Shown here: one piece after another, positions 4,582 through 31,299 of the stretch | How positions within the stretch are numbered: the stretch's first letter is position 1 | How the letters are laid out: each line of letters begins with the position of its first letter | Virus record (IMG/VR): IMGVR_UViG_3300037041_001227 | Coordinates: 1 to 35,693 of that record | Reading direction: 5' to 3' (one strand) | DNA: 35,693 bases | Origin: a virus | The notes under the pieces: model-generated | Told to the model about the DNA's origin: nothing | Database searches by the model: none | The model's input: only the letters and a program-made list of their open reading frames with translations | Program-made: the position numbers and the translations under genes

Positions 4582-5475
4582 ATGACTGAATATCTAAATA
4601 AAATAATCTGCTCTAATTCGATTGAATTTATGAGAGACAAGATGAATGAAAATTCGATCGACTTGATTGTGACCAGTCCCCCTTATGGTGTTGGTATTGA
4701 CTATGATAGTTGGGATGATGATAAAGAATTTGAAGAATACAAAGATTTTTCAAGGGAATGGTTGATCGAAGCTTTTCGTATTCTCAAAGAAGATGGAAGA
4801 ATTGCTCTCAATATCCCGTATGAGATCAACCGACAAGGTAAAGGTGGAAGGATTTTCTTTGTTTCGGAGATGTGGCAAATCATGAAAGAAATTGGGTTTG
4901 GTTTCTTCGGTGTTGTGGATTTGGAGGAATCTTCACCCCATCGTTCAAAGACAACCGCATGGGGATCTTGGATGAGTCCTTCTTCACCTTATATCTATAA
5001 CCCGAAGGAATGTGTAATCCTTGCCTATAAATCCAAACATAAGAAGATTGTTAAGGGAACACCACAATGGGACTTTCAAAATCAGATGGTGGAAGATCCC
5101 AAGACGGGAACCTCAAGAGAAAAAAAGGTCTATGATGAAAAAGACAAGAGGGACTTCATTGAACTTGTCTATGGTCAGTGGAACTATTTTGCTGACACCC
5201 GATCTCTAACCAAGGCCACTTTCTCTTTGGATATTCCGTGGAAGGCAATTAAGATTCTTTCATATAAGGAAGACATCATCTTTGATCCCTTCAATGGCTC
5301 GGGAACCACATGTTTGGCCGCAGAAAAACTCGGAAGAAAGTGGATCGGATGTGACATCAGTGAAAAGTATTGCGAAGTTGCAAGAAAAAGAATCAAAGAA
5401 TACCAAATCGAAAGGGACTCAAGTCTGAATCTCTTTTGTGACGAAATAAAATCAGGAAGATTTTTAGACATATGA
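4582..5475 (+). CDS. Beta-class DNA methyltransferase (N6-adenine or N4-cytosine)
   Basis: A 297-residue enzyme with both hallmark motifs in beta-class order: catalytic motif IV TSPPYGVGIDYDSW near residue 31, and SAM-binding motif I FDPFNGSGTTCLAAEKLGRK near residue 234. TSPPY is found in N4-cytosine and some N6-adenine enzymes, so the modified base is not settled. No restriction gene accompanies it. As a solitary phage methyltransferase it probably protects phage DNA from host restriction. Its stop overlaps the PEP carboxykinase start by four bases, implying co-expression. Confidence 0.88.
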   Translation: MTEYLNKIICSNSIEFMRDKMNENSIDLIVTSPPYGVGIDYDSWDDDKEFEEYKDFSREWLIEAFRILKEDGRIALNIPYEINRQGKGGRIFFVSEMWQIMKEIGFGFFGVVDLEESSPHRSKTTAWGSWMSPSSPYIYNPKECVILAYKSKHKKIVKGTPQWDFQNQMVEDPKTGTSREKKVYDEKDKRDFIELVYGQWNYFADTRSLTKATFSLDIPWKAIKILSYKEDIIFDPFNGSGTTCLAAEKLGRKWIGCDISEKYCEVARKRIKEYQIERDSSLNLFCDEIKSGRFLDI

Positions 5476-6953
5476 TTAAACGATATAATTGTTTTTCGGA
5501 AGACCTGTATCAACACGCTCTATCCGAAGGTGTGGAACAAACCAAAGACGGAATTTTACATTTTCCGACTGGTAAATTTACAGGACGATCCCCCAAAGAC
5601 AGATATTTCTGTGAAGGTGAATATGTAAAAAAGGTGGTAGATATCACAAGGGAAATTAATCAAATTGTCTCAAGGAAAACATATCAATCCTTGAGAACGA
5701 TGATTGAAGATCATCTACAAAACGCACCAATATTTTATAGAAGTTCAAGGGCTCTTTGCCATAACGAGAAGTATGTTTCCTTATTCGAACTCAATACTAC
5801 TTACGCTTGGGCAAACTTGTTTTTCAATAACATGACAAATAATTCGGTTGAATATTCACGAAAACCGAATGAGTTCTATACAAATTGGAAAATACTTCAC
5901 GCTCCTGACTTTGTTGCTCCATTTTATGAAGACATTAAAAATAATAATTTTGTAATCATCGATTTTGAAGACAAAACCATTTTGATCGGGGGAACAAGTT
6001 ATACGGGTGAGATTAAGAAAAGTATTTTTACAGTTCTAAATACCATCTTGATTGACGAAGGTGTTCTCCCCATGCATTGTTCCGCAAACGCAAATACAAA
6101 GAAAGGAAAAGGTGTGAATCTATTCTTTGGATTGTCAGGAACTGGTAAGACAACCCTTTCTTCAGATCCTGATAAATTCTTCATTGGGGACGATGAACAT
6201 GGTTGGGTTGACGACGAGGTCTTCAATTTCGAAGGAGGATGTTATGCAAAGTTAATCAATCTGAAAGAAGAAAACGAACCAATTATTTGGGAAGCTATCC
6301 ATTCTGAATCGAGATATACCAACATCAATACCACATTGATGGAAAATATTGTTGTTGATGAAAATGGCAAACCCGACTTTTCTAATTCTTCAATTACAGA
6401 AAATATTAGAGCCTCTTATCCGTTAGACCAATTACCGGAACAATATATGGTTGAACAGGTCGGTCAAGGAAAGAAGGTTGAAAATATATTCTTTCTTTCC
6501 TTCGATGCTTTTGGTGTGTTACCTCCGATCTCAAAACTTGATGTCGAGGATGCTGCTCGTTTCTTTAAGATGGGATATACTTCAAAAGTGGCAGGAACAG
6601 AAGTTGGGGTTACAGAACCTACCGTTGTTTTCTCCACCTGTTTTGGGTCACCCTTCCTTCCAAGAAAAGTAGATGATTATGTGAATCTTTTTAAGAAGAA
6701 GGTTCAAGAGTCAGGTTGTAATGTATGGTTAGTTAATACTGGGTTCGACGAGAATCTTAAGAGATATCCGATCGATATTACAAGAAAAGTAATTAACGGA
6801 GTAATTAACGGAAAATATTCGAAACAAGTTTTTGACTTCAACGGACTCAAGATTCCAAACCGAATTGAAGACCTCGATCTTCTTACACTGAAACCAGATG
6901 TAGAACAAGAAAGAGTTGATAAATTATTCGAATTATTTCAAGAACAAAATTAA
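5472..6953 (+). CDS. pckA: ATP-dependent phosphoenolpyruvate carboxykinase
   Basis: A 493-residue protein that converts oxaloacetate and ATP to PEP, CO2 and ADP (or the reverse). Signatures are all present: substrate loop PTGKFTGRSPKDRY near residue 34, P-loop LFFGLSGTGKTTLS near residue 210, metal-binding IGDDEHGW soon after, and the later GxTEP segment. It is slightly shorter than most bacterial enzymes (~520-540) but looks complete. It overlaps the methyltransferase by ATGA and ends in a strong terminator. A complete central-carbon enzyme inside a phage-like gene cluster is unusual; recent capture from a Bacteroidota host is an inference. Confidence 0.95.
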   Translation: MIKRYNCFSEDLYQHALSEGVEQTKDGILHFPTGKFTGRSPKDRYFCEGEYVKKVVDITREINQIVSRKTYQSLRTMIEDHLQNAPIFYRSSRALCHNEKYVSLFELNTTYAWANLFFNNMTNNSVEYSRKPNEFYTNWKILHAPDFVAPFYEDIKNNNFVIIDFEDKTILIGGTSYTGEIKKSIFTVLNTILIDEGVLPMHCSANANTKKGKGVNLFFGLSGTGKTTLSSDPDKFFIGDDEHGWVDDEVFNFEGGCYAKLINLKEENEPIIWEAIHSESRYTNINTTLMENIVVDENGKPDFSNSSITENIRASYPLDQLPEQYMVEQVGQGKKVENIFFLSFDAFGVLPPISKLDVEDAARFFKMGYTSKVAGTEVGVTEPTVVFSTCFGSPFLPRKVDDYVNLFKKKVQESGCNVWLVNTGFDENLKRYPIDITRKVINGVINGKYSKQVFDFNGLKIPNRIEDLDLLTLKPDVEQERVDKLFELFQEQN

Positions 6954-11886: not shown

Positions 11887-12936
11887 ATGAAAGTAAAATT
11901 AGAATACATTTGGTTAGATGGTTATGAACCCGAACCTAACCTCAGAAGTAAAGTTAAGGTAATTGACTCTCCGTCTCACCAAACTGCAGGAAAAAAAGTA
12001 GAGTTTGTCACATTGGAGACTTGTCCCGAGTGGTCATTCGATGGATCTTCAACACATCAAGCGGAGGGTAGTTTCTCTGATTGTGTATTGAAACCTGTTC
12101 GTCTGTATCTAAACCCTTTGAATAGAGGTGTGATACCCTCTTATTTTGTCTTGTGTGAAGTTTATCTCCCCGATGGTACTCCACACCCCACAAACACCCG
12201 ATCGTTGATTGGCGAGGAACAAGAAGATCTTTGGTTCGGATTCGAACAAGAATATACCCTTGTAAAGGATGGACGACCTTTGGGGTTCCCCACCAACGGA
12301 TACCCTGAACCACAAGGAAAATATTATTGTGGTGTAGGTAACGGACAGGTTAATGGACGAATCTTCGTGGATGAACATATGGAGATGTGTATCTTGGCAG
12401 GGATCGAAATTACTGGAACAAACGCTGAGGTTATGCTTGGACAATGGGAATATCAGGTTTTTAGTGAGGGAAAGAAAAAAGCTGGAGATGATCTTTGGAT
12501 TACTCGATATATCCTCGAACAAATGTCTGAGAACTATGGATTTCAGATTGAATTTCACCCTAAACCCGTTCAAGGGGATTGGAACGGATCGGGACTACAT
12601 TGTAACTTCTCGAATCACAAAATGAGAGAGGTGGGTGGAAAAGAATACTTCGAAGGAATCTTCAAACAATTTGAAGATCGACATGAACTTCATATTGAAA
12701 ATTATGGATCAGATAATAATCTTCGTTTGACAGGTCGACACGAAACACAACATATCTCTAAATTCAGTTGGGGTATTTCTAATCGTGGAGCCTCGATTCG
12801 AGTTCCATTGAATACCGCTAAGGACAATTGGAAAGGTGGTTATGTTGAAGATCGGAGACCTGCATCACATGCTGATCCCTACAAGATTGTCAAAGTAATT
12901 TCCGATTCTTTGAATTTAGCTGAGGTAACCGCTTGA
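11887..12936 (+). CDS. Type II (eukaryotic-like) glutamine synthetase
   Basis: A 349-residue enzyme joining ammonia to glutamate with ATP. GSII features are clear: WSFDGSSTHQAEGSFSDCVL in the beta-grasp domain, EQEYTLV, GTNAEVMLGQWEYQV, GDWNGSGLHCNFS, and the C-terminal RLTGRHETQHISKFSWGISN with NRGASIRVP and EDRRPASHADPY. All expected substrate and metal residues appear present. No adenylylation-type regulation is expected of GSII. The gene is monocistronic, between a terminator and the ncRNA promoter; the promoter of the next unit overlaps its stop codon. A glutamine synthetase in a phage cluster suggests redirected nitrogen flow for nucleotide synthesis. Confidence 0.95.
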   Translation: MKVKLEYIWLDGYEPEPNLRSKVKVIDSPSHQTAGKKVEFVTLETCPEWSFDGSSTHQAEGSFSDCVLKPVRLYLNPLNRGVIPSYFVLCEVYLPDGTPHPTNTRSLIGEEQEDLWFGFEQEYTLVKDGRPLGFPTNGYPEPQGKYYCGVGNGQVNGRIFVDEHMEMCILAGIEITGTNAEVMLGQWEYQVFSEGKKKAGDDLWITRYILEQMSENYGFQIEFHPKPVQGDWNGSGLHCNFSNHKMREVGGKEYFEGIFKQFEDRHELHIENYGSDNNLRLTGRHETQHISKFSWGISNRGASIRVPLNTAKDNWKGGYVEDRRPASHADPYKIVKVISDSLNLAEVTA

Positions 12937-12963
12937 CAAATCGAAAAAAAGTTCATACATTTG
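12933..12963 (+). promoter_or_regulatory. Distal ncRNA promoter TTGACA / TACATTTG
   Basis: TTG at 12933-12935 (as TTGACA) and TACATTTG at 12956-12963, 20 bases apart. The -33 box overlaps the glutamine synthetase stop codon. It lies 111 bases upstream of a second, stronger promoter. Confidence 0.75.
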
Positions 12964-12988
12964 TAATCCAAACCAAACGAGGTGAGGG

Positions 12989-13029
12989 TTTTTTCTGAAA
13001 AACGATATATTTATATATCACAGAAAAAA
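12989..13029. repeat. Long AT-rich nested hairpin between the two promoters
   Basis: Outer arms TTTTTTCTG (12989-12997) and CAGAAAAAA (13021-13029) enclose a perfect inner hairpin GATATAT-TT-ATATATC (13004-13019). It sits between the two ncRNA promoters and could attenuate the distal one or end glutamine synthetase readthrough. Confidence 0.7.
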
Positions 13030-13043
13030 ATTGGGGATTTCAC

Positions 13044-13074
13044 TTGACAAAATGAAAATTTAGTTGTAGTTTTG
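13044..13074 (+). promoter_or_regulatory. Proximal ncRNA promoter TTGACA / TAGTTTTG
   Basis: TTGACA at 13044-13049 and TAGTTTTG at 13067-13074, with 20 bases between TTG and the -7 box. It is close to the Bacteroidota consensus and would start transcription near 13080, directly before the structured sequence. Confidence 0.8.
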
Positions 13075-13079
13075 TCACC

Positions 13080-13914
13080 TGAAACTTAAGTTCTTTGATT
13101 AAAACCTTTTATTGATGGTTTAAACGGTTGGCGGCTTGGCGTCGTTAGATAACCCCGGTGACGGGAATAAAGGGTCGGAATTCAGATTTAGCAATCTGAT
13201 GAGATGACCGCAGAACACGAGATGTTCTGACAACCAAGCAAATTACCTACGATAGAAACCCTAAGGGCAACTGCTGAGGGGGTTCTATTATCCTGAGTCC
13301 GTGGAATATCAGGATTGAGGTGGTGACACCAATAGGAAAAGGTAAAGATGACGGTTCGAAACAACCTGCCAGTTGTAAGAGAGCTGAGCATCAGTCTGAT
13401 GGGTATCCGAAGCAGAGAGAATCTGACGATATCCTGAAAGGCCGTGAGTGGCAGACTCACAGAGAGTAGTGTGGTATTCCGTGTCCAAAAGATATGGAGT
13501 CACACCGACAGCACTACTTTCCAAATCCACATTTGCTAAATAATTTACAAATTATAAGCAAAAGCCTGTCGGCGTTGTAAACGAAAGGTGTCTAACACTT
13601 CGAGCCGTGATGGTTAACGAAGTCTACAATAAGATCGCGAGTCTTTTGTAGTCGATTGTGAAAGTTCTAGTAGGAAGGCCAACCTTTAGTGAGTGAAAAC
13701 TCAATAGAAACAAAGTAACAGTTGAGTAGTTTACAACGATACGAGTGGTTACCGATAGTAACCGACACTGATCCGATACCACGGGCAATCGTGGTGGACA
13801 AGTTGGCAACCTGTCATGGGGTACACCAACAAAAGACGGATCACTCAAACGTGTAGTCTCAGCGTAAACTTATTGAATCCCCTAACCTTGACCGTAGTTG
13901 GTTGAGGTTTTTTA
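13080..13914 (+). ncRNA. Giant, highly structured noncoding RNA (~830 nt)
   Basis: No credible coding frame crosses this span, it has its own promoter and terminator, and it folds richly by eye. Perfect or near-perfect helices include 13134-39/13234-39 closing a junction of three hairpins (13154-65, 13182-99, 13211-29); 13290-96/13309-15; 13444-60; 13465-71/13512-18; 13532-62; 13624-51; 13747-63; 13769-75/13837-43 enclosing 13778-95. GNRA tetraloops cap 13154-65 (GTGA), 13319-30 (GTGA) and 13690-703 (GAAA). A 10-bp long-range helix joins 13573-82 with 13729-38. CCGACAG at 13505-11 can pair with CTGTCGG at 13566-72, forming a pseudoknot. Base composition is much less AT-rich than neighbours. 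Size and style recall GOLLD and ROOL RNAs of phages, but I cannot match a consensus; it may be a new class. Confidence 0.85.
13881..13913 (+). terminator. Terminator of the ncRNA
   Basis: CCTAACC (13881-13887) pairs with GGTTGAGG (13900-13907) with one bulge, followed by six T. It defines the 3' end of the RNA. Confidence 0.8.
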
Positions 13915-13921
13915 TGCCGTA

Positions 13922-13951
13922 TTGACAAAAAACAAAAATCACATATATTTA
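13922..13951 (+). promoter_or_regulatory. Promoter TTGACA-N-TATATTTA
   Basis: TTG at 13922-13924 with 19 bases to TATATTTA at 13944-13951. It joins a host-like -33 box to the local TATATTTAT element, linking the two promoter classes, and lies upstream of the 53-residue gene. Confidence 0.6.
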
Positions 13952-13975
13952 TTAGTAGTTAAAACATTTTGAAAA

Positions 13976-14137
13976 ATGAACCATTTAACTGATGACGACG
14001 ACGATCTCACATTTTTGTGGGGTGAGGGTAAGAAAGTTAAAAAATCTAAGAAAGGGGTAAAACCCACCGATGGATTTTGGGAAGACGAGTATTACGACGC
14101 TAGTCAAAAGAAAGGAAGAGGTAAGAAAAAGTTTTGA
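13976..14137 (+). CDS. 53-residue highly charged protein
   Basis: A short gene with an acidic start (MNHLTDDDDDLTFLWGEG), a basic middle (KKVKKSKKGVK), an aromatic acidic patch (FWEDEYYD) and a basic tail (KKGRGKKKF). Own promoter at 13922-13951. The alternating charge suggests a disordered, nucleic-acid-binding peptide. It is the first gene after the large RNA, so a role with that RNA is conceivable but unsupported. Confidence 0.6.
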   Translation: MNHLTDDDDDLTFLWGEGKKVKKSKKGVKPTDGFWEDEYYDASQKKGRGKKKF

Positions 14138-15942: not shown

Positions 15943-16968
15943 ATGATTGGATATGCTGATATAATTGTTGATCTCCAAGCGGGAGACACTGGTAAAGGGA
16001 AAGTTGCCCATGCTTTAGCTAAAAGCGGTAATTATACCCATGTAGTTCGATATAATGGTGGTGGTAATGCAGGACATACTGTTTACCATGATGGACAAAA
16101 GGTTGTAACCCATTTTGTCCCAATCGGAGTTCTTTATAACATTCCTTCTATTATTGGACCAGGGTGTGTTGTTGATCCTGTAAAATTGGAGGTAGAGTTG
16201 GATCAACTCGAAAAAATTAATCCTGAGGTACGAAATTATCTTATGATCGACAAACGAGTTCATGTTATTACCGATCAACACAAGGAGGAAGACTCTAAAG
16301 ATGTTAAAATCGGAACTACCAAGACAGGTAATGGACCTGCCTATTCTTCCAAATATAAAAGAGAAGGGATAAGAGCTGGAAAATATGTTCACATGGTTCA
16401 AGAGGAAAGTAACTTCCCATTTTATGTATGTGACATTTATCAAATCTTATTTCAGAAGGAAAAGGTAAATATCCTGTTTGAAGGTGCTCAAGGATTTGAA
16501 TTGGATATTGATTGGGGTGATTATCCCTTTGTTACCTCTTCACACTGCACTGCGGGAAGTGCTTGTTTAAATGGTGTTTCCCCGAAGTATGTTCGGAACA
16601 TTTATGGAATCTGCAAAGCATATGTTACTTATGTGGGAGCAAAAGAATTTGAAGGGGGGTCTGATTTGTTTCAAAAGATCCGAGAGGTGGGTAATGAATA
16701 CGGAGCAACAACAGGAAGACCTCGACAGGTAAATTGGTTGGATTTGGACAATCTTATCGTAGCATCGAATATCAATGGAGTGACCAATCTTATCATCAAC
16801 AAGATTGATGTTTTGGATAAAGTGAATTATTATTGTTTGATTCATCACGGAGAAGAGATGGTATTTTCATCAAAGATCGAATTTGTAAAATATATCGAAG
16901 AAAATCTTTATGAAAATTGTCTCATCATTGATGAGATTATTTTTAGTCACACACCTTACGACATATGA
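15943..16968 (+). CDS. purA: Adenylosuccinate synthetase, short (archaeal/phage-like) form
   Basis: A 341-residue enzyme joining IMP and aspartate with GTP. Motifs: DLQAGDTGKGKVAHAL (D15 corresponds to the catalytic Asp of GDEGKGK; the usual Glu is Thr), RYNGGGNAGHTVYHDG, TTKTGNGPAY, GATTGRPRQVNWLDL and NKIDVLDK. It is ~90 residues shorter than typical bacterial PurA and near the archaeal length, the group to which phage PurZ is related. In PurZ the catalytic Asp is reported to be replaced; here it is kept, favouring IMP over dGMP as substrate. It precedes thyA through a small overlapping gene, forming a nucleotide-synthesis unit. Confidence 0.9.
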   Translation: MIGYADIIVDLQAGDTGKGKVAHALAKSGNYTHVVRYNGGGNAGHTVYHDGQKVVTHFVPIGVLYNIPSIIGPGCVVDPVKLEVELDQLEKINPEVRNYLMIDKRVHVITDQHKEEDSKDVKIGTTKTGNGPAYSSKYKREGIRAGKYVHMVQEESNFPFYVCDIYQILFQKEKVNILFEGAQGFELDIDWGDYPFVTSSHCTAGSACLNGVSPKYVRNIYGICKAYVTYVGAKEFEGGSDLFQKIREVGNEYGATTGRPRQVNWLDLDNLIVASNINGVTNLIINKIDVLDKVNYYCLIHHGEEMVFSSKIEFVKYIEENLYENCLIIDEIIFSHTPYDI

Positions 16969-17159
16969 ACTGGACACTCTCACTATCAACCTTCTCTATC
17001 GATGAAGAATGTTTCTACCTTCTTCCGTTTATCAAATTATACACTATCATGGAATTCCCAACTCCAAAAGGGTATAACTCACCCCTTCATGGGTTTGAGA
17101 TGGGTATTTTTCGATTCAGATATACCTTCGGAATTCAAAAACTATATAACGACTTTTGA
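16965..17159 (+). CDS. Small unknown protein between purA and thyA
   Basis: A 64-residue frame starting with ATGA overlap at the purA stop and ending with ATGA overlap at the thyA start (17156-17159). The tight coupling on both sides supports a real gene. The product is rich in Phe, Tyr and Leu ([25 protein letters not shown]) with no clear membrane segment and no recognised family. Confidence 0.55.
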
Positions 17160-17623
17160 TGATGAATAATTTAGACAAACAATACCAAGCACTCCTTCAA
17201 GATATTCTTGATAATGGAGTAACAAAAAAAACAAGGAATGGAGGGACAATCTCAGTATTCGGAAGACAGATTCGTCACAAAATGTCAGAAGGATTTCCAC
17301 TTCTTACAACCAAGAAAGTTCATTTCAAAAGTGTAATTGCGGAGTTGTTGTGGTTTTTGAGAGGTGAGACTAACATCAAATCCCTTTTGACATATGGTTG
17401 TAACATTTGGAATGGAGATGTTTATAAGAATTACAGCAGTCAAGTTCAAGTATGGGAACCACACTTGGATGAAGAGATGTTTATTGAACGAATTAAAACC
17501 GATGATGATTTTGCTCAGAAGTGGGGTGAGTTAGGTCCTGTGTACGGGGCTGGTTGGCGTAATTGGAATGGTAAATCCGAGGACGAACTTTATGATGATT
17601 ATTTGAAAAAAGTAAAAAAATAA
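17156..17623 (+). CDS. thyA: Thymidylate synthase, N-terminal part (split gene)
   Basis: 155 residues equal the N-terminal half of ThyA: Q-Y-Q-x-L-L-x-D-I-L, [49 protein letters not shown] and [13 protein letters not shown]. It then runs into an A-rich end (YLKKVKK) and stops before the catalytic Cys. The C-terminal half resumes at 18497 in the same frame class after an inserted HNH nuclease gene. Both halves look intact and unmutated, so a two-chain enzyme or RNA-level joining is possible. Confidence 0.92.
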
Positions 17624-17655
17624 TTATAATTCTTTTAGTTTTTTTCTTTTAGTTA

Positions 17656-17666
17656 TATATTTATTA
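17656..17666 (+). promoter_or_regulatory. TATATTTATTA element in the thyA insertion
   Basis: TATATTTATTA ends 3 bases before ATG 17670. It suggests that the inserted genes are expressed from their own promoter. Confidence 0.5.
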
Positions 17667-17669
17667 TAG

Positions 17670-17840
17670 ATGGGACGATTAAAAAAATACAAGACAGAAC
17701 AAGAAAAGGTTGACGCACAACGTCTTTGGGCTAAAGAGTATTATCATCGTAACAAAGAAAAAATAAATAAAAAAACAATGGAAAAATACTATGAATTACG
17801 AAAAAATATACAACCAAATAGTGGAGAGAGCGAAGAATAG
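17670..17840 (+). CDS. 56-residue basic protein inside the thyA insertion
   Basis: A small gene reading MGRLKKYKTEQEKVDAQRLW, then AKEYYHRNKEKINKK, and ending in a short acidic tail. The pattern R-x-x-K-x-K-T-x-E-E-K...A-R-R-x-W-x-x-x-Y-Y-x-x-N-K-E is familiar from small viral and phage proteins and from DNA-binding leaders of homing nucleases. It overlaps the HNH gene start by 50 bases in a different frame. It may be an ancestral N-terminal part of the nuclease, now frameshifted, or an independent DNA-binding peptide. Confidence 0.6.
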   Translation: MGRLKKYKTEQEKVDAQRLWAKEYYHRNKEKINKKTMEKYYELRKNIQPNSGESEE

Positions 17841-18507
17841 AGTATTAGATTGTTATACTGAAAGTCATCATATTATACCACGTTGTATGGGTGGTGGTGA
17901 TGAAAAAGAAAATTTAGTTACTTTAACGGCTAGGGAACATTTTATATGTCATAGATTATTAGTACAAATTCATCCTGATAACAATAAGTTAAAATTTGCG
18001 TTATGGGCTATGTGTAATATGAAAAGTAAGAGACAAAGTAGATACGTTCCTAGTTCTAGAGTTTATGAATCTATTAAAATAGAAGTAATAAAATTAATAA
18101 GTGAAAAGAAAAAAGGTGTTAAATTAAGTGAAGAACATAAAAGAAAAACAAGCGAAACACTTAAAGGTAGAAAACGACCACAAGAAGTTATTAATAAAAT
18201 TTACAAAAAGAGATTAGAGTCTGGTTGGAAACATTCTTATGAAACTCGTAAAAAAATGACGGGTAGGAAACTTTCTGATGAAACTCGTAAAAAAATAAGT
18301 GAGACGAATATAAAAAGAAACTCTTCGCCCGAGTTTAGAAAAAAACTAAGTGATGTGTCAGTTCACAAAAGGGCTTGTATTATTGATGGTGTATGGTATG
18401 AAAGTATTAGGCAAGCGTCAAATCAATTAGGTATTAAGTGGGATATGGTTAGTGATAGAATAAAAAGTAAAAGTGAAAAATTTAAAAACTGGAATTATGC
18501 GGAATAA
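17791..18507 (+). CDS. HNH homing endonuclease with NUMOD3 and NUMOD1-like modules
   Basis: A 238-residue protein. The HNH core is at ~18-55: ESHHIIPRCMGGGDEKENLV then TLTAREHFICHRLL. Residues ~105-180 carry two or three NUMOD3 DNA-binding motifs (KLSEEHKRKTSETLKGRKRP; KMTGRKLSDETRKKISETN). The C-terminus has a NUMOD1-like helix-turn-helix (YESIRQASNQLGI). It is more AT-rich and Lys-rich than the thyA halves around it, consistent with transfer. It would cut uninterrupted thyA alleles and spread itself by repair. Its end overlaps the beginning of the C-terminal thyA part. Confidence 0.9.
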   Translation: MNYEKIYNQIVERAKNRVLDCYTESHHIIPRCMGGGDEKENLVTLTAREHFICHRLLVQIHPDNNKLKFALWAMCNMKSKRQSRYVPSSRVYESIKIEVIKLISEKKKGVKLSEEHKRKTSETLKGRKRPQEVINKIYKKRLESGWKHSYETRKKMTGRKLSDETRKKISETNIKRNSSPEFRKKLSDVSVHKRACIIDGVWYESIRQASNQLGIKWDMVSDRIKSKSEKFKNWNYAE

Positions 18508-19186
18508 ACAAACACACGAAGATGGAACTCCATTTACAAAAGAAGAGTTTCTACAAAAATTGAAAACGGACAAGGAATTTAATAATGAGTTCGGTAATAA
18601 GGGAATTGACCAAATATCTGAATTAATTAGGTTATTAAAAGAAACTCCTGATTCTAGGCGTATGGTTGTAAACGCTTGGGCTGTGCACGATTTACCAAAT
18701 ATGGTTCTTCCACCTTGTCATTATGGATTTCAAGTTTATACAAGAGAATTGAGTAATGAAGAGAAATGGGAACAGTATACTAAATCAGGTTTGAATATAG
18801 AAATAAACGGAACTCCATTAGAACTTAAACATATGGGGACTCCATTTTATCCAAAATCACTACCTCAACGAGCAATCTCTTTAATGTGGAATCAACGTTC
18901 AGTAGATACATTCTTAGGGTTACCATTCAACATTGCTAGTTACGGATTACTACTGACAATGATTGCAGATGAAATGAATATGATTCCTGATGAATTAATT
19001 GGAAATTTGGGTGACACACACCTATATTCAAATCATATTGAACAGGCTAAAGAACAAATTAGTAGAGAACCTTATCCACTACCCACCTTCAAACTACAAC
19101 ACATAGAGAAAGATTATACAGGTATGGTTTATGAACTCGAAAACTATGAATCACACCCAACCATTAAAGCACCTTTATCAAACTAA
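18497..19186 (+). CDS. thyA: Thymidylate synthase, C-terminal part (split gene)
   Basis: From ATG 18497 (18473 is an alternative) the product is ~229 residues. After an extra stretch (THEDGTPFTKEEFLQKLKTD) it rejoins ThyA at GIDQISELIRLLKETPDSRR, with the catalytic Cys in LPPCHYGFQVY, then RSVDTFLGLPFNIASYGLLL, GDTHLYSNHIEQ and the C-terminal H-P-T-I-K-A-P. It contains dUMP- and folate-binding residues, while the first half supplies the phosphate loop. The start lies inside the HNH gene, so translational coupling may drive it. Confidence 0.9.
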   Translation: MRNKQTHEDGTPFTKEEFLQKLKTDKEFNNEFGNKGIDQISELIRLLKETPDSRRMVVNAWAVHDLPNMVLPPCHYGFQVYTRELSNEEKWEQYTKSGLNIEINGTPLELKHMGTPFYPKSLPQRAISLMWNQRSVDTFLGLPFNIASYGLLLTMIADEMNMIPDELIGNLGDTHLYSNHIEQAKEQISREPYPLPTFKLQHIEKDYTGMVYELENYESHPTIKAPLSN

Positions 19187-19537: not shown

Positions 19538-20962
19538 ATGATCAGACTTATTCCCCTCTTTATTTTGATGTTATCATCTTTGACTTCATTTGGTCAAACT
19601 CGTAGAATCCCATTTGGATGTCAGACGATGGGTGAAATCAAAAACACCTTACCTGAATCTAGAATGAGATCTAAAAGTGTTAATACCCCTAAAAATATTA
19701 GATGTGTGGTTCATGTTTGTCATTCACCAGGTTTTGCAGGAAGTGAACTACCCATTGAAGTTGTTCAAGGTGCGATTGATCAGATGAACGTTGATTTTAT
19801 TGGATCCAATCTATCATTCACATTGGAACATACCAACTACGTTGATCTACGTCAATACGCTTGGCATGACGCGTACGTTGATGGTAGTGTTTGTTTTCCT
19901 TTATATCAGACTCAGGCAACTATGATAGCCAAACAACATAAATGGGACACAAGAGAATATTGTAATATTTATGTTACTCCTAGGTTGTGTCAAACTCTTT
20001 TGGGTTATGCGTACGTTTTGTTCGGTCCAAATAATGCTAATGATGGTATTTGGATGAAGACAAATTCTTTTGGTTTTGGAGATTGGCCACATCTTGCTCC
20101 GACTCTTCGTGAGAATGAAACCCTTTCTCATGAGATGGGTCATTATTGTGGTTTGTTTCATACTTTTAATGAAACAGAATTTTGTGGACAACAAGATTCC
20201 AACATCGGATGTGAATACGAAGGTGATTATGTTTGTGACACCCCACCAACAAAAATGAGTCGTGGATGTCCTGGTGTACCTGGTTTCTTTTGTCCTGAAA
20301 CTATGTATGATGGTACCGTTCAATTCAGAGCGAATAACCATATGGACTATTGTCCTGAACAATGCCGAGATGTTTTCACACCAGGTCAGATAGAAAGGAT
20401 GCATAGAATGTTGGATTTTCAAAGGTATGAACTTTACACTGAAGAAACCGCAACTCCTTTTTGTTTGGGGGATCTAAATGGTGATGGAGCGGTTGGTACT
20501 TCGGATCTTTTGGTGATTTTGTCTAATATGGGATGTGTTGAATGTGGATATGAACGAGGGGATATTAATTTGGATCAAAGGGTTACCGTTCAAGATGTTA
20601 ACTTCATTCTTTCCCTTTGGGGTGATATCTGTGGTGATGGTATTGGACAAATTAGTGGTCTTCGAACCAAATCAACTCGGATGTATGACGAGAATGAATT
20701 TTCAGATCCTTATGAAATTATCAAAAACTATCATTATCCTGAACGAGGAACACCTACCAAAGAACAAGATCGTGAAAATAAGGAAGAGGAAAAAACAACT
20801 GAAGGATTTATGACCCTCACTAAAAAAGTAAAACCAACTTTACAAATTAAGCTTTCGGAGCTTGACGAATTGGATTTGTTTGGTCTATTTTTGGAAGACG
20901 GAATTGACAACCTAATCGTAGAAATCGGTGAAGGTGAAAAAATCGTAATTGAAAGGTCATAA
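19538..20962 (+). CDS. Secreted pappalysin-like (M43) metalloprotease with dockerin-type repeats
   Basis: A 474-residue protein with signal peptide (MIRLIPLFILMLSSLTSFGQ). The zinc site HEMGHYCGLFH lies near residue 198, in the HExxHxxGxxH form of M43 pappalysin-like proteases, with Cys-rich segments (DSNIGCEYEGDYVCDTPP) and a later NHMDY Met-turn-like motif. Around 310-365 come two Ca-binding dockerin-type halves (DLNGDGAVGTSDLLVILSNM; DINLDQRVTVQDVNFILSLW). The last ~100 residues are charged and unlike the paralog at 30175. It would act outside the cell, perhaps degrading surface protein or host matrix. Such an exported protease is unexpected in a phage. Confidence 0.85.
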   Translation: MIRLIPLFILMLSSLTSFGQTRRIPFGCQTMGEIKNTLPESRMRSKSVNTPKNIRCVVHVCHSPGFAGSELPIEVVQGAIDQMNVDFIGSNLSFTLEHTNYVDLRQYAWHDAYVDGSVCFPLYQTQATMIAKQHKWDTREYCNIYVTPRLCQTLLGYAYVLFGPNNANDGIWMKTNSFGFGDWPHLAPTLRENETLSHEMGHYCGLFHTFNETEFCGQQDSNIGCEYEGDYVCDTPPTKMSRGCPGVPGFFCPETMYDGTVQFRANNHMDYCPEQCRDVFTPGQIERMHRMLDFQRYELYTEETATPFCLGDLNGDGAVGTSDLLVILSNMGCVECGYERGDINLDQRVTVQDVNFILSLWGDICGDGIGQISGLRTKSTRMYDENEFSDPYEIIKNYHYPERGTPTKEQDRENKEEEKTTEGFMTLTKKVKPTLQIKLSELDELDLFGLFLEDGIDNLIVEIGEGEKIVIERS

Positions 20963-29377: not shown

Positions 29378-30193
29378 ATGGAAATTACGGATAAAAAAGA
29401 TCAAAAGTTATATGATTTAATCACCACGCAACTTGATGAGGTGACTGATGGTTCTATTTGGTATGAGGAGACAGAAGAACTTATGAAACAATTTGATAGT
29501 AAGGGTAGTAAATGGTTGATCAACCCCAAGACTAAAACTTGGTTTATTGAAGTAAGGAGTGAATTAAATGTATTTTACAATATCAATCAAATTACTATAC
29601 CAAGACTTATTTCTAAAGAAAAAGTAGATTTCTTCGATAAAGTGTTGTCAGAATGGATTTATAAGTCAATAGATATCAAAACAAATTTAATGATGACCGC
29701 TTGGAGTATTCCCCAAATATATGTAGTAGGAGATGTTATTGAAAAGGGAAAACCAATCAAATCAAATAGTTTAAATGAATCATCAAATCGTGAAGAGAAA
29801 TTACTATCAGCTGTAAATGATTATTTTGAAGAAATTTATCTCAAAAATTCTGAATGGTTCTTAATTGATGATGATACTGAATTGTATTTGATAAATCCTA
29901 CTAAGGAAGAATGGATTTTTGAAGCGAGACGGTCGGGGGCACTATTTTATAATGAAGAAATGTTTCAAGATATCAAAAGACTATTTAATTTTCGAGATAA
30001 TAAAATAATAGTATCTTTAATTGAGAATGTAATGAAGAAATTCCCTAATATTGAATATTCTGCAATAACTTCGATATGGGTAGATAACATGAAAGAAATT
30101 CAAAAGGCTTTACGAGGTAATAAAAAGATTAACAACCAACGTTGGGTAGAAGGTAGAGGGTTGGTATCGGATGATCAGTCACCACAGACCTGA
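29378..30193 (+). CDS. Two-domain WLINPxTKxW-family protein
   Basis: A 271-residue protein made of two tandem copies of the family domain: SKWLINPKTKTWFIEVRSEL near residue 47, and ELYLINPTKEEWIFEARRSG near residue 168. Each copy is followed by an aromatic LFY/VFY and a helix ending in V-x-x-W. The linker contains NSLNESSNREEKLL. The duplication shows the domain is an independent unit. The gene's end overlaps the opposing protease gene by 19 bases. Function unknown. Confidence 0.65.
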   Translation: MEITDKKDQKLYDLITTQLDEVTDGSIWYEETEELMKQFDSKGSKWLINPKTKTWFIEVRSELNVFYNINQITIPRLISKEKVDFFDKVLSEWIYKSIDIKTNLMMTAWSIPQIYVVGDVIEKGKPIKSNSLNESSNREEKLLSAVNDYFEEIYLKNSEWFLIDDDTELYLINPTKEEWIFEARRSGALFYNEEMFQDIKRLFNFRDNKIIVSLIENVMKKFPNIEYSAITSIWVDNMKEIQKALRGNKKINNQRWVEGRGLVSDDQSPQT

Positions 30194-31299
30194 CCGATAC
30201 CTGTTAAGAATACCAAAAAATCCTGAGACCCAACAAGTCCGTCACCATCGATATCACATTTATAACACTCCCCTTTTTCTATTGTTGTGCCGTGACAAGA
30301 TAGGTATATAAGAAAATCTTTTGAGGTTACAAGACCATCTTTATCGAGATCCAAAAGACAGGGAAGTGATAAAGTTCTATAGACATCTTTTCTATTTTCT
30401 GACACATAGTTATGCATTCGTGTTATCTGACCGTTTGTAAAACTTCTTCTACAATTACTTCCGAGATAGTCCATATGATTATCTTGTACATATCCAGCCC
30501 AAGGATCGGATTCCAATATTATTATATTACAAGCGGGTGTGCAGTCTATTCTTGGACTCGATTGTTTAAAAGGTGGGGTGTCACATACAAGATCACCTGT
30601 GGTTGCACAATTCATACCAAAGTTTTCACAAGAGAAGGATCCGTTAAAGGTATGGTACAATCCGAGATAATGACCGATCTCATGAATTAACGTTGCGTTT
30701 CTATTATATGAAGATGAATTTGTGGTAAAGGTAGAAGTTCTTATCCACACACCATCGGGTGGTTTGGGTGAAGGACTTACGGATGTTTGTCCATAGGGTG
30801 GGATAAAAGAAAATCCTAAGGCACCATATAACTTTGGTTGAACAAAAATATTGAGAGTAGTTCTTGGATTTACACTCATGGTTTCCGCAATTTCAAAAAG
30901 TTTGGAAGATCCAGGTGATCTCATAGATGGGATCTTAGTACTGTTTGTGGATTCGGTCATATATTCTTGATACCATGAAAAATCACTAAGAGGTTTTCTG
31001 TTTATAGATACCAACACAAATCTGAATTTTGACTTGTTGAATTTGATATTCAAATCATTGAGTGCAACATACAAAGCCGAATCGGAAACATTTACCAACT
31101 GATCATCATATAATACATGAAACACAACAGGTATTTCTTTATGTTCAATAGGATCAGATCCTCGTTTTAACATACGGGATGATTTTCTTGATTGTGAATT
31201 AAATTCTCTTTTAGACGTAAATGTACCGCATTCTTCTTCTTGTGTAAAAGATGGGAGAGATATAAACCCAAGTAGTAATAGTAGTATAAACTTTTTCAT
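30175..31299 (-). CDS. Second secreted pappalysin-like (M43) metalloprotease with dockerin-type repeats
   Basis: A 374-residue protein with signal peptide (MKKFILLLLLGFISLPSFTQ). Zinc site HEIGHYLGLYH lies near residue 206, followed by CENFGMNCATTGDLVCDTPP and NHMDYLG. The C-terminus has two calcium half-sites (DLDKDGLVTSKDFLIYL; DIDGDGLVGSQDFLVFL). It is a clear paralog of 19538-20962 but ends right after the dockerin pair, lacking the charged tail. It is encoded on the opposite strand, so it is not a local tandem duplicate. Upstream TATATTTG at 31319-31326 (minus) is a candidate -7 box. Confidence 0.85.
   Translation of the reverse strand: MKKFILLLLLGFISLPSFTQEEECGTFTSKREFNSQSRKSSRMLKRGSDPIEHKEIPVVFHVLYDDQLVNVSDSALYVALNDLNIKFNKSKFRFVLVSINRKPLSDFSWYQEYMTESTNSTKIPSMRSPGSSKLFEIAETMSVNPRTTLNIFVQPKLYGALGFSFIPPYGQTSVSPSPKPPDGVWIRTSTFTTNSSSYNRNATLIHEIGHYLGLYHTFNGSFSCENFGMNCATTGDLVCDTPPFKQSSPRIDCTPACNIIILESDPWAGYVQDNHMDYLGSNCRRSFTNGQITRMHNYVSENRKDVYRTLSLPCLLDLDKDGLVTSKDFLIYLSCHGTTIEKGECYKCDIDGDGLVGSQDFLVFLTGIGQVCGD

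Follow-up and report, generated by a model that had tools for sequence, protein, structure and literature searches.

The RNA encoded at positions 13081-13913 of a linear viral record of 35,693 bases (the whole of which was analysed and is referred to here as the window) belongs to the known GOLLD family, and both GOLLD domains are present in it. The Rfam model RF02032, which covers only the 3' half of GOLLD, matches 13462-13865 over its entire length (positions 1-416 of 416) with 259.6 bits and an E-value of 5e-73, and so exceeds the curated cut-off of 150 bits. We consider it highly probable that the locus is a complete two-domain GOLLD gene of a Bacteroidota phage, with its own promoter, probable boxA-type antitermination, a terminator and cage assembly. 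The structure of GOLLD cages has been solved (PMC12286853); what is new here is a shorter cap domain, the absence of neighbouring tRNA genes, and a leader that matches the host rRNA leader.

Secondary structure and covariation

Relatives were collected by exact-pattern scans of viral contigs, which returned more than 50 contigs carrying the same full-length RNA; the GOLLD cut-off was exceeded in 36 of 40 records tested, the RNA of the remaining four being cut short by a contig end. The alignment comprises 17 non-redundant full-length sequences, including that of the window, to which the others are 60-90% identical. These sequences support a structure of 207 pairs in which 98.5% of cells are paired, and changes on both sides are found in 95 pairs (408 cells), compared with 57.6 +/- 4.0 doubly changed pairs in shuffled alignments, none of 500 reaching the real value, and 11-20 in slid controls. 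An earlier note on this DNA, which had named covariation among homologues as the check on the helices it proposed, is upheld on this point, and the helices, tetraloops and pseudoknot that it named all exist in the window. Its 10-bp long-range helix and 7-bp pseudoknot are exact there (the former 97.1% paired across the alignment), and its three GNRA tetraloops are present as given, the first two being GNRA in all 17 sequences. The secondary structure of the 3' half (helices 19-35 of the 207-pair structure) is conserved with compensatory changes, and the 10-bp helix coincides exactly with the helix that is bracketed in RF02032.

A scan of the unpaired columns adds a 6-bp pseudoknot, a 5-bp kissing loop and a 2-bp contact (Table 1), all of them short and picked by the scan, and hence weaker evidence than the main structure; the count of doubly changed pairs in these added helices was reached by 24 of 500 shuffles and the count of doubly changed cells by none. 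A further helix proposed by RNAalifold, 13144-13150 with 13856-13863, was not accepted: it is nearly invariant, which leaves covariation uninformative, its sequence differs in long-cap GOLLDs, and in the solved structure the last loop makes its contacts elsewhere (PMC12286853).

Table 1. Elements of the GOLLD locus, in window coordinates
Element	Position	Strand	Basis and remarks
Upstream promoter-like site TTG-N-TACATTTG, possible second start	12933-12963	+	Pattern scan; kept in two relatives (L002, L006)
Main promoter TTGAC...TAGTTTTG, Bacteroidota -33/-7 type	13044-13074	+	Promoter type upstream in 17/17
boxA-like leader motif GTTCTTTGA	13090-13098	+	Motif count in leaders
First hairpin of 5' domain	13130-13143	+	Loop 13134-13139 pairs with 13234-13239 (6-bp pseudoknot)
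Hairpin, GNRA loop GTGA 13158-13161	13154-13165	+	3/4 pairs compensatory; GNRA in 17/17
5'-domain pseudoknot, 3' strand	13234-13239	+	2/6 pairs compensatory, 100% paired
5' subdomain (R1): multi-branched junction and hairpin with GNRA loop 13323-13326	13243-13392	+	Covariance model
Kissing loop, strand 1 (CUGCC)	13366-13370	+	Pairs with 13450-13454; 2/5 pairs compensatory, 96.5% paired
Short end of cap, 69 nt	13393-13461	+	128-151 nt in long-cap GOLLDs, including ACC-GAAA-GGT
Kissing loop, strand 2 (GGCAG)	13450-13454	+	Pairs with 13366-13370
Conserved GOLLD 3' domain	13462-13865	+	RF02032, 259.6 bits, model 1-416 of 416
Pseudoknot, strand 1	13505-13511	+	Pairs with 13566-13572; 4/7 pairs compensatory, 100% paired
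Variable A/T-rich linker	13522-13559	+	Alignment; cage interior in solved structure; without tRNA
Pseudoknot, strand 2	13566-13572	+	Pairs with 13505-13511
Long-range helix, 5' strand (probably P17)	13573-13582	+	Pairs with 13729-13738; 5/10 pairs compensatory
Hairpin whose GGCC loop is self-complementary; probably L21a (number inferred), a kissing loop that closes the shell	13672-13685	+	
Hairpin, GAAA loop 13695-13698; probable L21b	13690-13703	+	Alignment
Long-range helix, 3' strand	13729-13738	+	Pairs with 13573-13582
Two-pair contact, 13742-13743 with 13753-13754	13742-13754	+	Matches the pseudoknot of L22 with J17/22
Intrinsic terminator, hairpin and T-tract	13885-13913	+	5/9 pairs compensatory; T-tract in 17/17

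The 5' domain and a short-cap subfamily

Conservation in GOLLD is weaker in the 5' half than in the 3' half (PMC12286853). A covariance model of the 5' subdomain R1, built from the short-cap family alone, was run against 100 other loci, nearly all of which had been fetched by a loose pattern for the GOLLD 3' domain, and it matched 71 of them over the full model length. In the 39 loci for which positions were checked the match lies just upstream of the 3' domain on the same strand, and the sole stray second match has an E-value of 2.6. This placement indicates that the 5' domain is homologous to the 5' domains of other GOLLDs. The 5'-domain pseudoknot likewise has equivalents in long-cap GOLLDs, as GTGTA/TACAC and GTATA/TATAC.

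The distance from the end of R1 to the 3' domain is 69 nt in the window as opposed to 128-151 nt in 29 other loci, and a strict pattern for the ACC-GAAA-GGT hairpin matches 25 of these 29 long-cap loci, whereas all 17 short-cap sequences lack it. The short-cap subfamily is without a cap element of about 60 nt that includes this GAAA hairpin. The hairpin is probably the conserved GAAA loop L11a, its number having been assigned by us, and L11a, a feature of the solved member that lies outside the Rfam definition, faces the cap's inner circle in the solved GOLLD (PMC12286853). Because the subfamily has no counterpart to a cap element that the long-cap GOLLDs have kept, the geometry of the 14-mer may not carry over to it.

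The 3' domain and proposed cage assembly

The GOLLD that has been studied assembles into a hollow RNA cage, resolved as a 14-mer by cryo-EM, and GOLLD expression rises during lysis (PMC12286853). By homology to this structure, from which both cage assembly and the number of subunits are carried over, the window RNA, too, most likely forms a hollow RNA cage by self-assembly. Within each half of the shell the cap would be made of 5' domains and the ring of 3' domains (PMC12286853), and copies would join through kissing loops, such as the GGCC loop, and through A-minor contacts to give a closed hollow cage, with the variable linker inside. The loop of the hairpin at 13672-13685 is GGCC in 16 of the 17 sequences and retains the central GC in all of them. 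The two-pair contact is CG in 10 sequences and AU in 7, and is thus paired in 17 of 17; the pseudoknot of L22 with J17/22 to which it corresponds was seen by cryo-EM in the solved GOLLD (PMC12286853). As a proposal, the most likely purpose of such an assembly would be that of a container or a sequestration shell acting late in infection. PMC7567579 reports that a GOLLD in L. brevis was not needed for phage production.

A distinctly less likely account holds that the RNA is GOLLD by descent and forms no closed cage, existing instead as a smaller or open oligomer or as a monomer that might, for example, bind host ribosomes. It draws on the short cap, with its missing stretch of about 60 nt and conserved GAAA hairpin, and on the pull-down of ribosomes with GOLLD, a result cited in PMC12286853; nevertheless the contacts of the ring domain, in the form of the GGCC loop and the L22 contact, have been kept, and the kissing loop of the cap still covaries. 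We prefer the closed cage.

Family identity

The earlier note had described the RNA as possibly a new class, and as either a member of the known giant phage RNAs or an unrelated analogue. It is not a new class, because RF02032 matches over the entire length of the model, and of the two remaining options membership, in GOLLD, stands while the unrelated analogue does not. All Rfam models were searched, a check which that note had recommended, and across 12900-14100 no family other than GOLLD matched even at E-values up to 1; at this threshold there was no match to the models of ROOL, HEARO, OLE, RNase P, tmRNA or group I and group II introns, and ARAGORN found no tmRNA. Introns, RNase P, tmRNA and an embedded tRNA were accordingly rejected, none having matched. 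That the RNA might nonetheless represent a new giant phage class with a superficial resemblance to GOLLD is very improbable: no Rfam model matches the 5' half by itself, and this half is only weakly similar in sequence to other GOLLD 5' halves, yet the 3' half matches at E 5e-73 over the full model and the 5' covariance model recovers its counterpart in 71 of 100 other loci, and on these two grounds the new class and the unrelated analogue were both rejected.

GOLLD RNA, solved as the env-38 14-mer nanocage (PMC12286853), is the closest known system, and the window RNA resembles it in a 3' domain that matches over the full length, in a homologous 5' subdomain, in the same pseudoknots where these are testable, in a size of about 830 nt, and in being phage-encoded with its own transcription unit. 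The window RNA differs from it in its cap, which is shorter by about 60 nt and does not have the GAAA hairpin seen in long-cap relatives, in having no tRNA nearby or within the 3' linker, and in that its cage is proposed by homology. ROOL RNA, which forms an 8-mer nanocage, is likewise a large ornate phage RNA and is analogous only, the Rfam ROOL model giving no match to the window RNA at E-values up to 1.

The locus at about 13081-13913 is a real noncoding RNA gene of about 830 nt with its own promoter and terminator. Its G+C content, 43.9% against 34.8% for the window, agrees with the earlier remark that it is less AT-rich than its surroundings, and the gene-free character claimed for it is borne out, the open stretches in 13080-13914 falling in differing frames across the 17 homologues so that no reading frame or translation is conserved. 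It is scarcely credible that 13080-13914 is instead a decayed coding region, an intron or another known RNA: antisense open reading frames of 73-90 amino acids exist in the window, but the open stretches are not kept among homologues (on which ground a coding region was rejected), 95 pairs in the alignment are compensatory, and no intron, RNase P or tmRNA model matches.

Transcription

Both transcription signals proposed in the earlier note hold up. The promoter at 13044 is of the Bacteroidota type and follows the pattern TTG-N-TAnnTTTG, and the terminator consists of a stem of 13885-13893 with 13900-13908 followed by a run of T's. The leader holds the nine-base motif GTTCTTTGA, which is found in 44 of the 47 GOLLD leaders checked (15 of the 17 that are short-cap, 29 of the 30 others), whereas 1.7% of 260-nt segments taken at random from the same loci contain it; the leaders without it are two of the short-cap group and that of one Mahaphage. 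Five rRNA leaders were read from two Bacteroidota genomes, and each of them contains these nine bases, in the form TGTTCTTTGACATATTG, at 93-128 nt upstream of where the 16S match starts; it is this position relative to 16S that is informative, genome-wide counts of GTTCTTTGA alone being uninformative. A longer form, AGTTCTTTGAAATATTG, is present in several GOLLD leaders, including that of a 634-kb phage in which tRNA-Met precedes GOLLD.

The motif resembles the boxA of E. coli, and in the rRNA leaders it lies at the place of boxA; the Bacteroidota motif is called boxA on the strength of this resemblance. As in the boxA antitermination leaders of rRNA operons, GTTCTTTGA stands in the leader, the difference being that here the leader is that of a phage noncoding RNA and antitermination is proposed from identity of the motif. 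This identity to the rRNA-leader motif suggests that the GOLLD leader serves host-type antitermination of an untranslated RNA. The RNA would be transcribed alone from its own host-type promoter, the boxA-like leader would probably recruit the host factors for rRNA antitermination and allow the untranslated transcript to be finished, and transcription would end at the intrinsic terminator. No mention of GOLLD together with boxA was found among the open-licence papers searched. From the leader comes a prediction of how a long untranslated RNA is produced by phages, and with it a link between GOLLD and transcription of the rRNA type.

tRNA genes and the distribution of GOLLD

GOLLD is commonly, though not invariably, found near tRNA genes, and this is not so at the window locus; the window holds no tRNA gene, nor does the linker of any relative. 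A tRNA gene lies within 3 kb of GOLLD in 11 of 29 long-cap loci, whereas 50 short-cap loci contain no tRNA gene at all, a difference that, the loci being related, is a correlation of lineages and not a set of independent events. Most of the long-cap tRNA genes are for tRNA-Met and begin about 30 nt or less from the 3' end of GOLLD, loci adjacent to tRNA-Met being L086, L102, L106, L087, L125, L126, L132 and L138, which suggests a co-transcript of GOLLD and tRNA-Met in long-cap loci. A natural subfamily without one cap element and without the tRNA linkage provides a comparison between parts that serve the cage and parts that serve its cargo. It is possible, though we lean slightly against it, that in the short-cap subfamily of Bacteroidota phages the GAAA hairpin and the tRNA-Met linkage have been lost or were never present, giving a different cage geometry or cargo, and that GOLLD transcription borrows the host rRNA boxA signal, the RNA being made like ribosomal RNA.

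Two complete huge-phage genomes also carry a GOLLD that exceeds the Rfam cut-off, LR745206.1 (634 kb; 420875-421280, 287 bits, L208) and LR756502.1 (642 kb; 434685-435091, 275 bits, L209), and the family is thereby represented in some of the largest phages known. One huge-phage GOLLD lies about 100 nt after a tRNA-Met and carries the same GTTCTTTGAAATATTG leader, and no GOLLD was found in a 735-kb huge-phage genome. A survey of huge phages describes genomes of these 634-642 kb sizes, with Bacteroidetes hosts predicted for the largest, and its main text makes no mention of GOLLD (PMC7162821); we infer from their sizes that LR745206 and LR756502 are genomes from that survey. A blastn search with three RNAs of the short-cap family gave no match among annotated phages, even though two of the records hold GOLLD, and a search of 198 genomes from the phylum of one Bacteroidota genome found no GOLLD, a result that does not show absence.

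Host, phage and neighbouring genes

The RNA has a NUDIX-family gene on one side and a small gene downstream, a placement conserved in most relatives. The record is viral and contains a phage lysozyme/endolysin, from which it follows that this GOLLD is phage-encoded. Assignment to a Bacteroidota phage, as the earlier note had it, is supported by the promoter type, by the near absence of Shine-Dalgarno cores (a Shine-Dalgarno-like core precedes one of 37 window genes) and by the rRNA-leader motif. Relatives of the RNA occur in contigs as long as 297 kb, and for this reason the window probably represents one piece of a large Bacteroidota phage.

The window also encodes an ATP-type PEP carboxykinase (5472-6953), a glutamine synthetase-like protein (11887-12936), whose gene has a counterpart of 55% identity in LR756501, a huge phage of 735 kb, and an adenylosuccinate synthetase (15943-16968) that is PurZ-like by PHROGs. 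At 17156-19186 thymidylate synthase is in two halves, the Pfam profile being matched up to position 108 and then from 104, and the open reading frame that splits it (17791-18507) is homing-endonuclease-like, with similarity to the I-TevI DNA-binding domain and to NUMOD3; no group I intron model matched at the split at E-values up to 1. Two related, secreted-looking metalloproteases, at 19538-20962 and 30175-31299, bear HEIGHYLGLYHTF / HEMGHYCGLFHTF motifs, the first protease being M43-like, and both translations end in dockerin-like DxDxDG repeats. The translation of 2362-2880 contains the repeat VEDALKRGVST, VEDALKRGVST, VEDVLKSGVSI.
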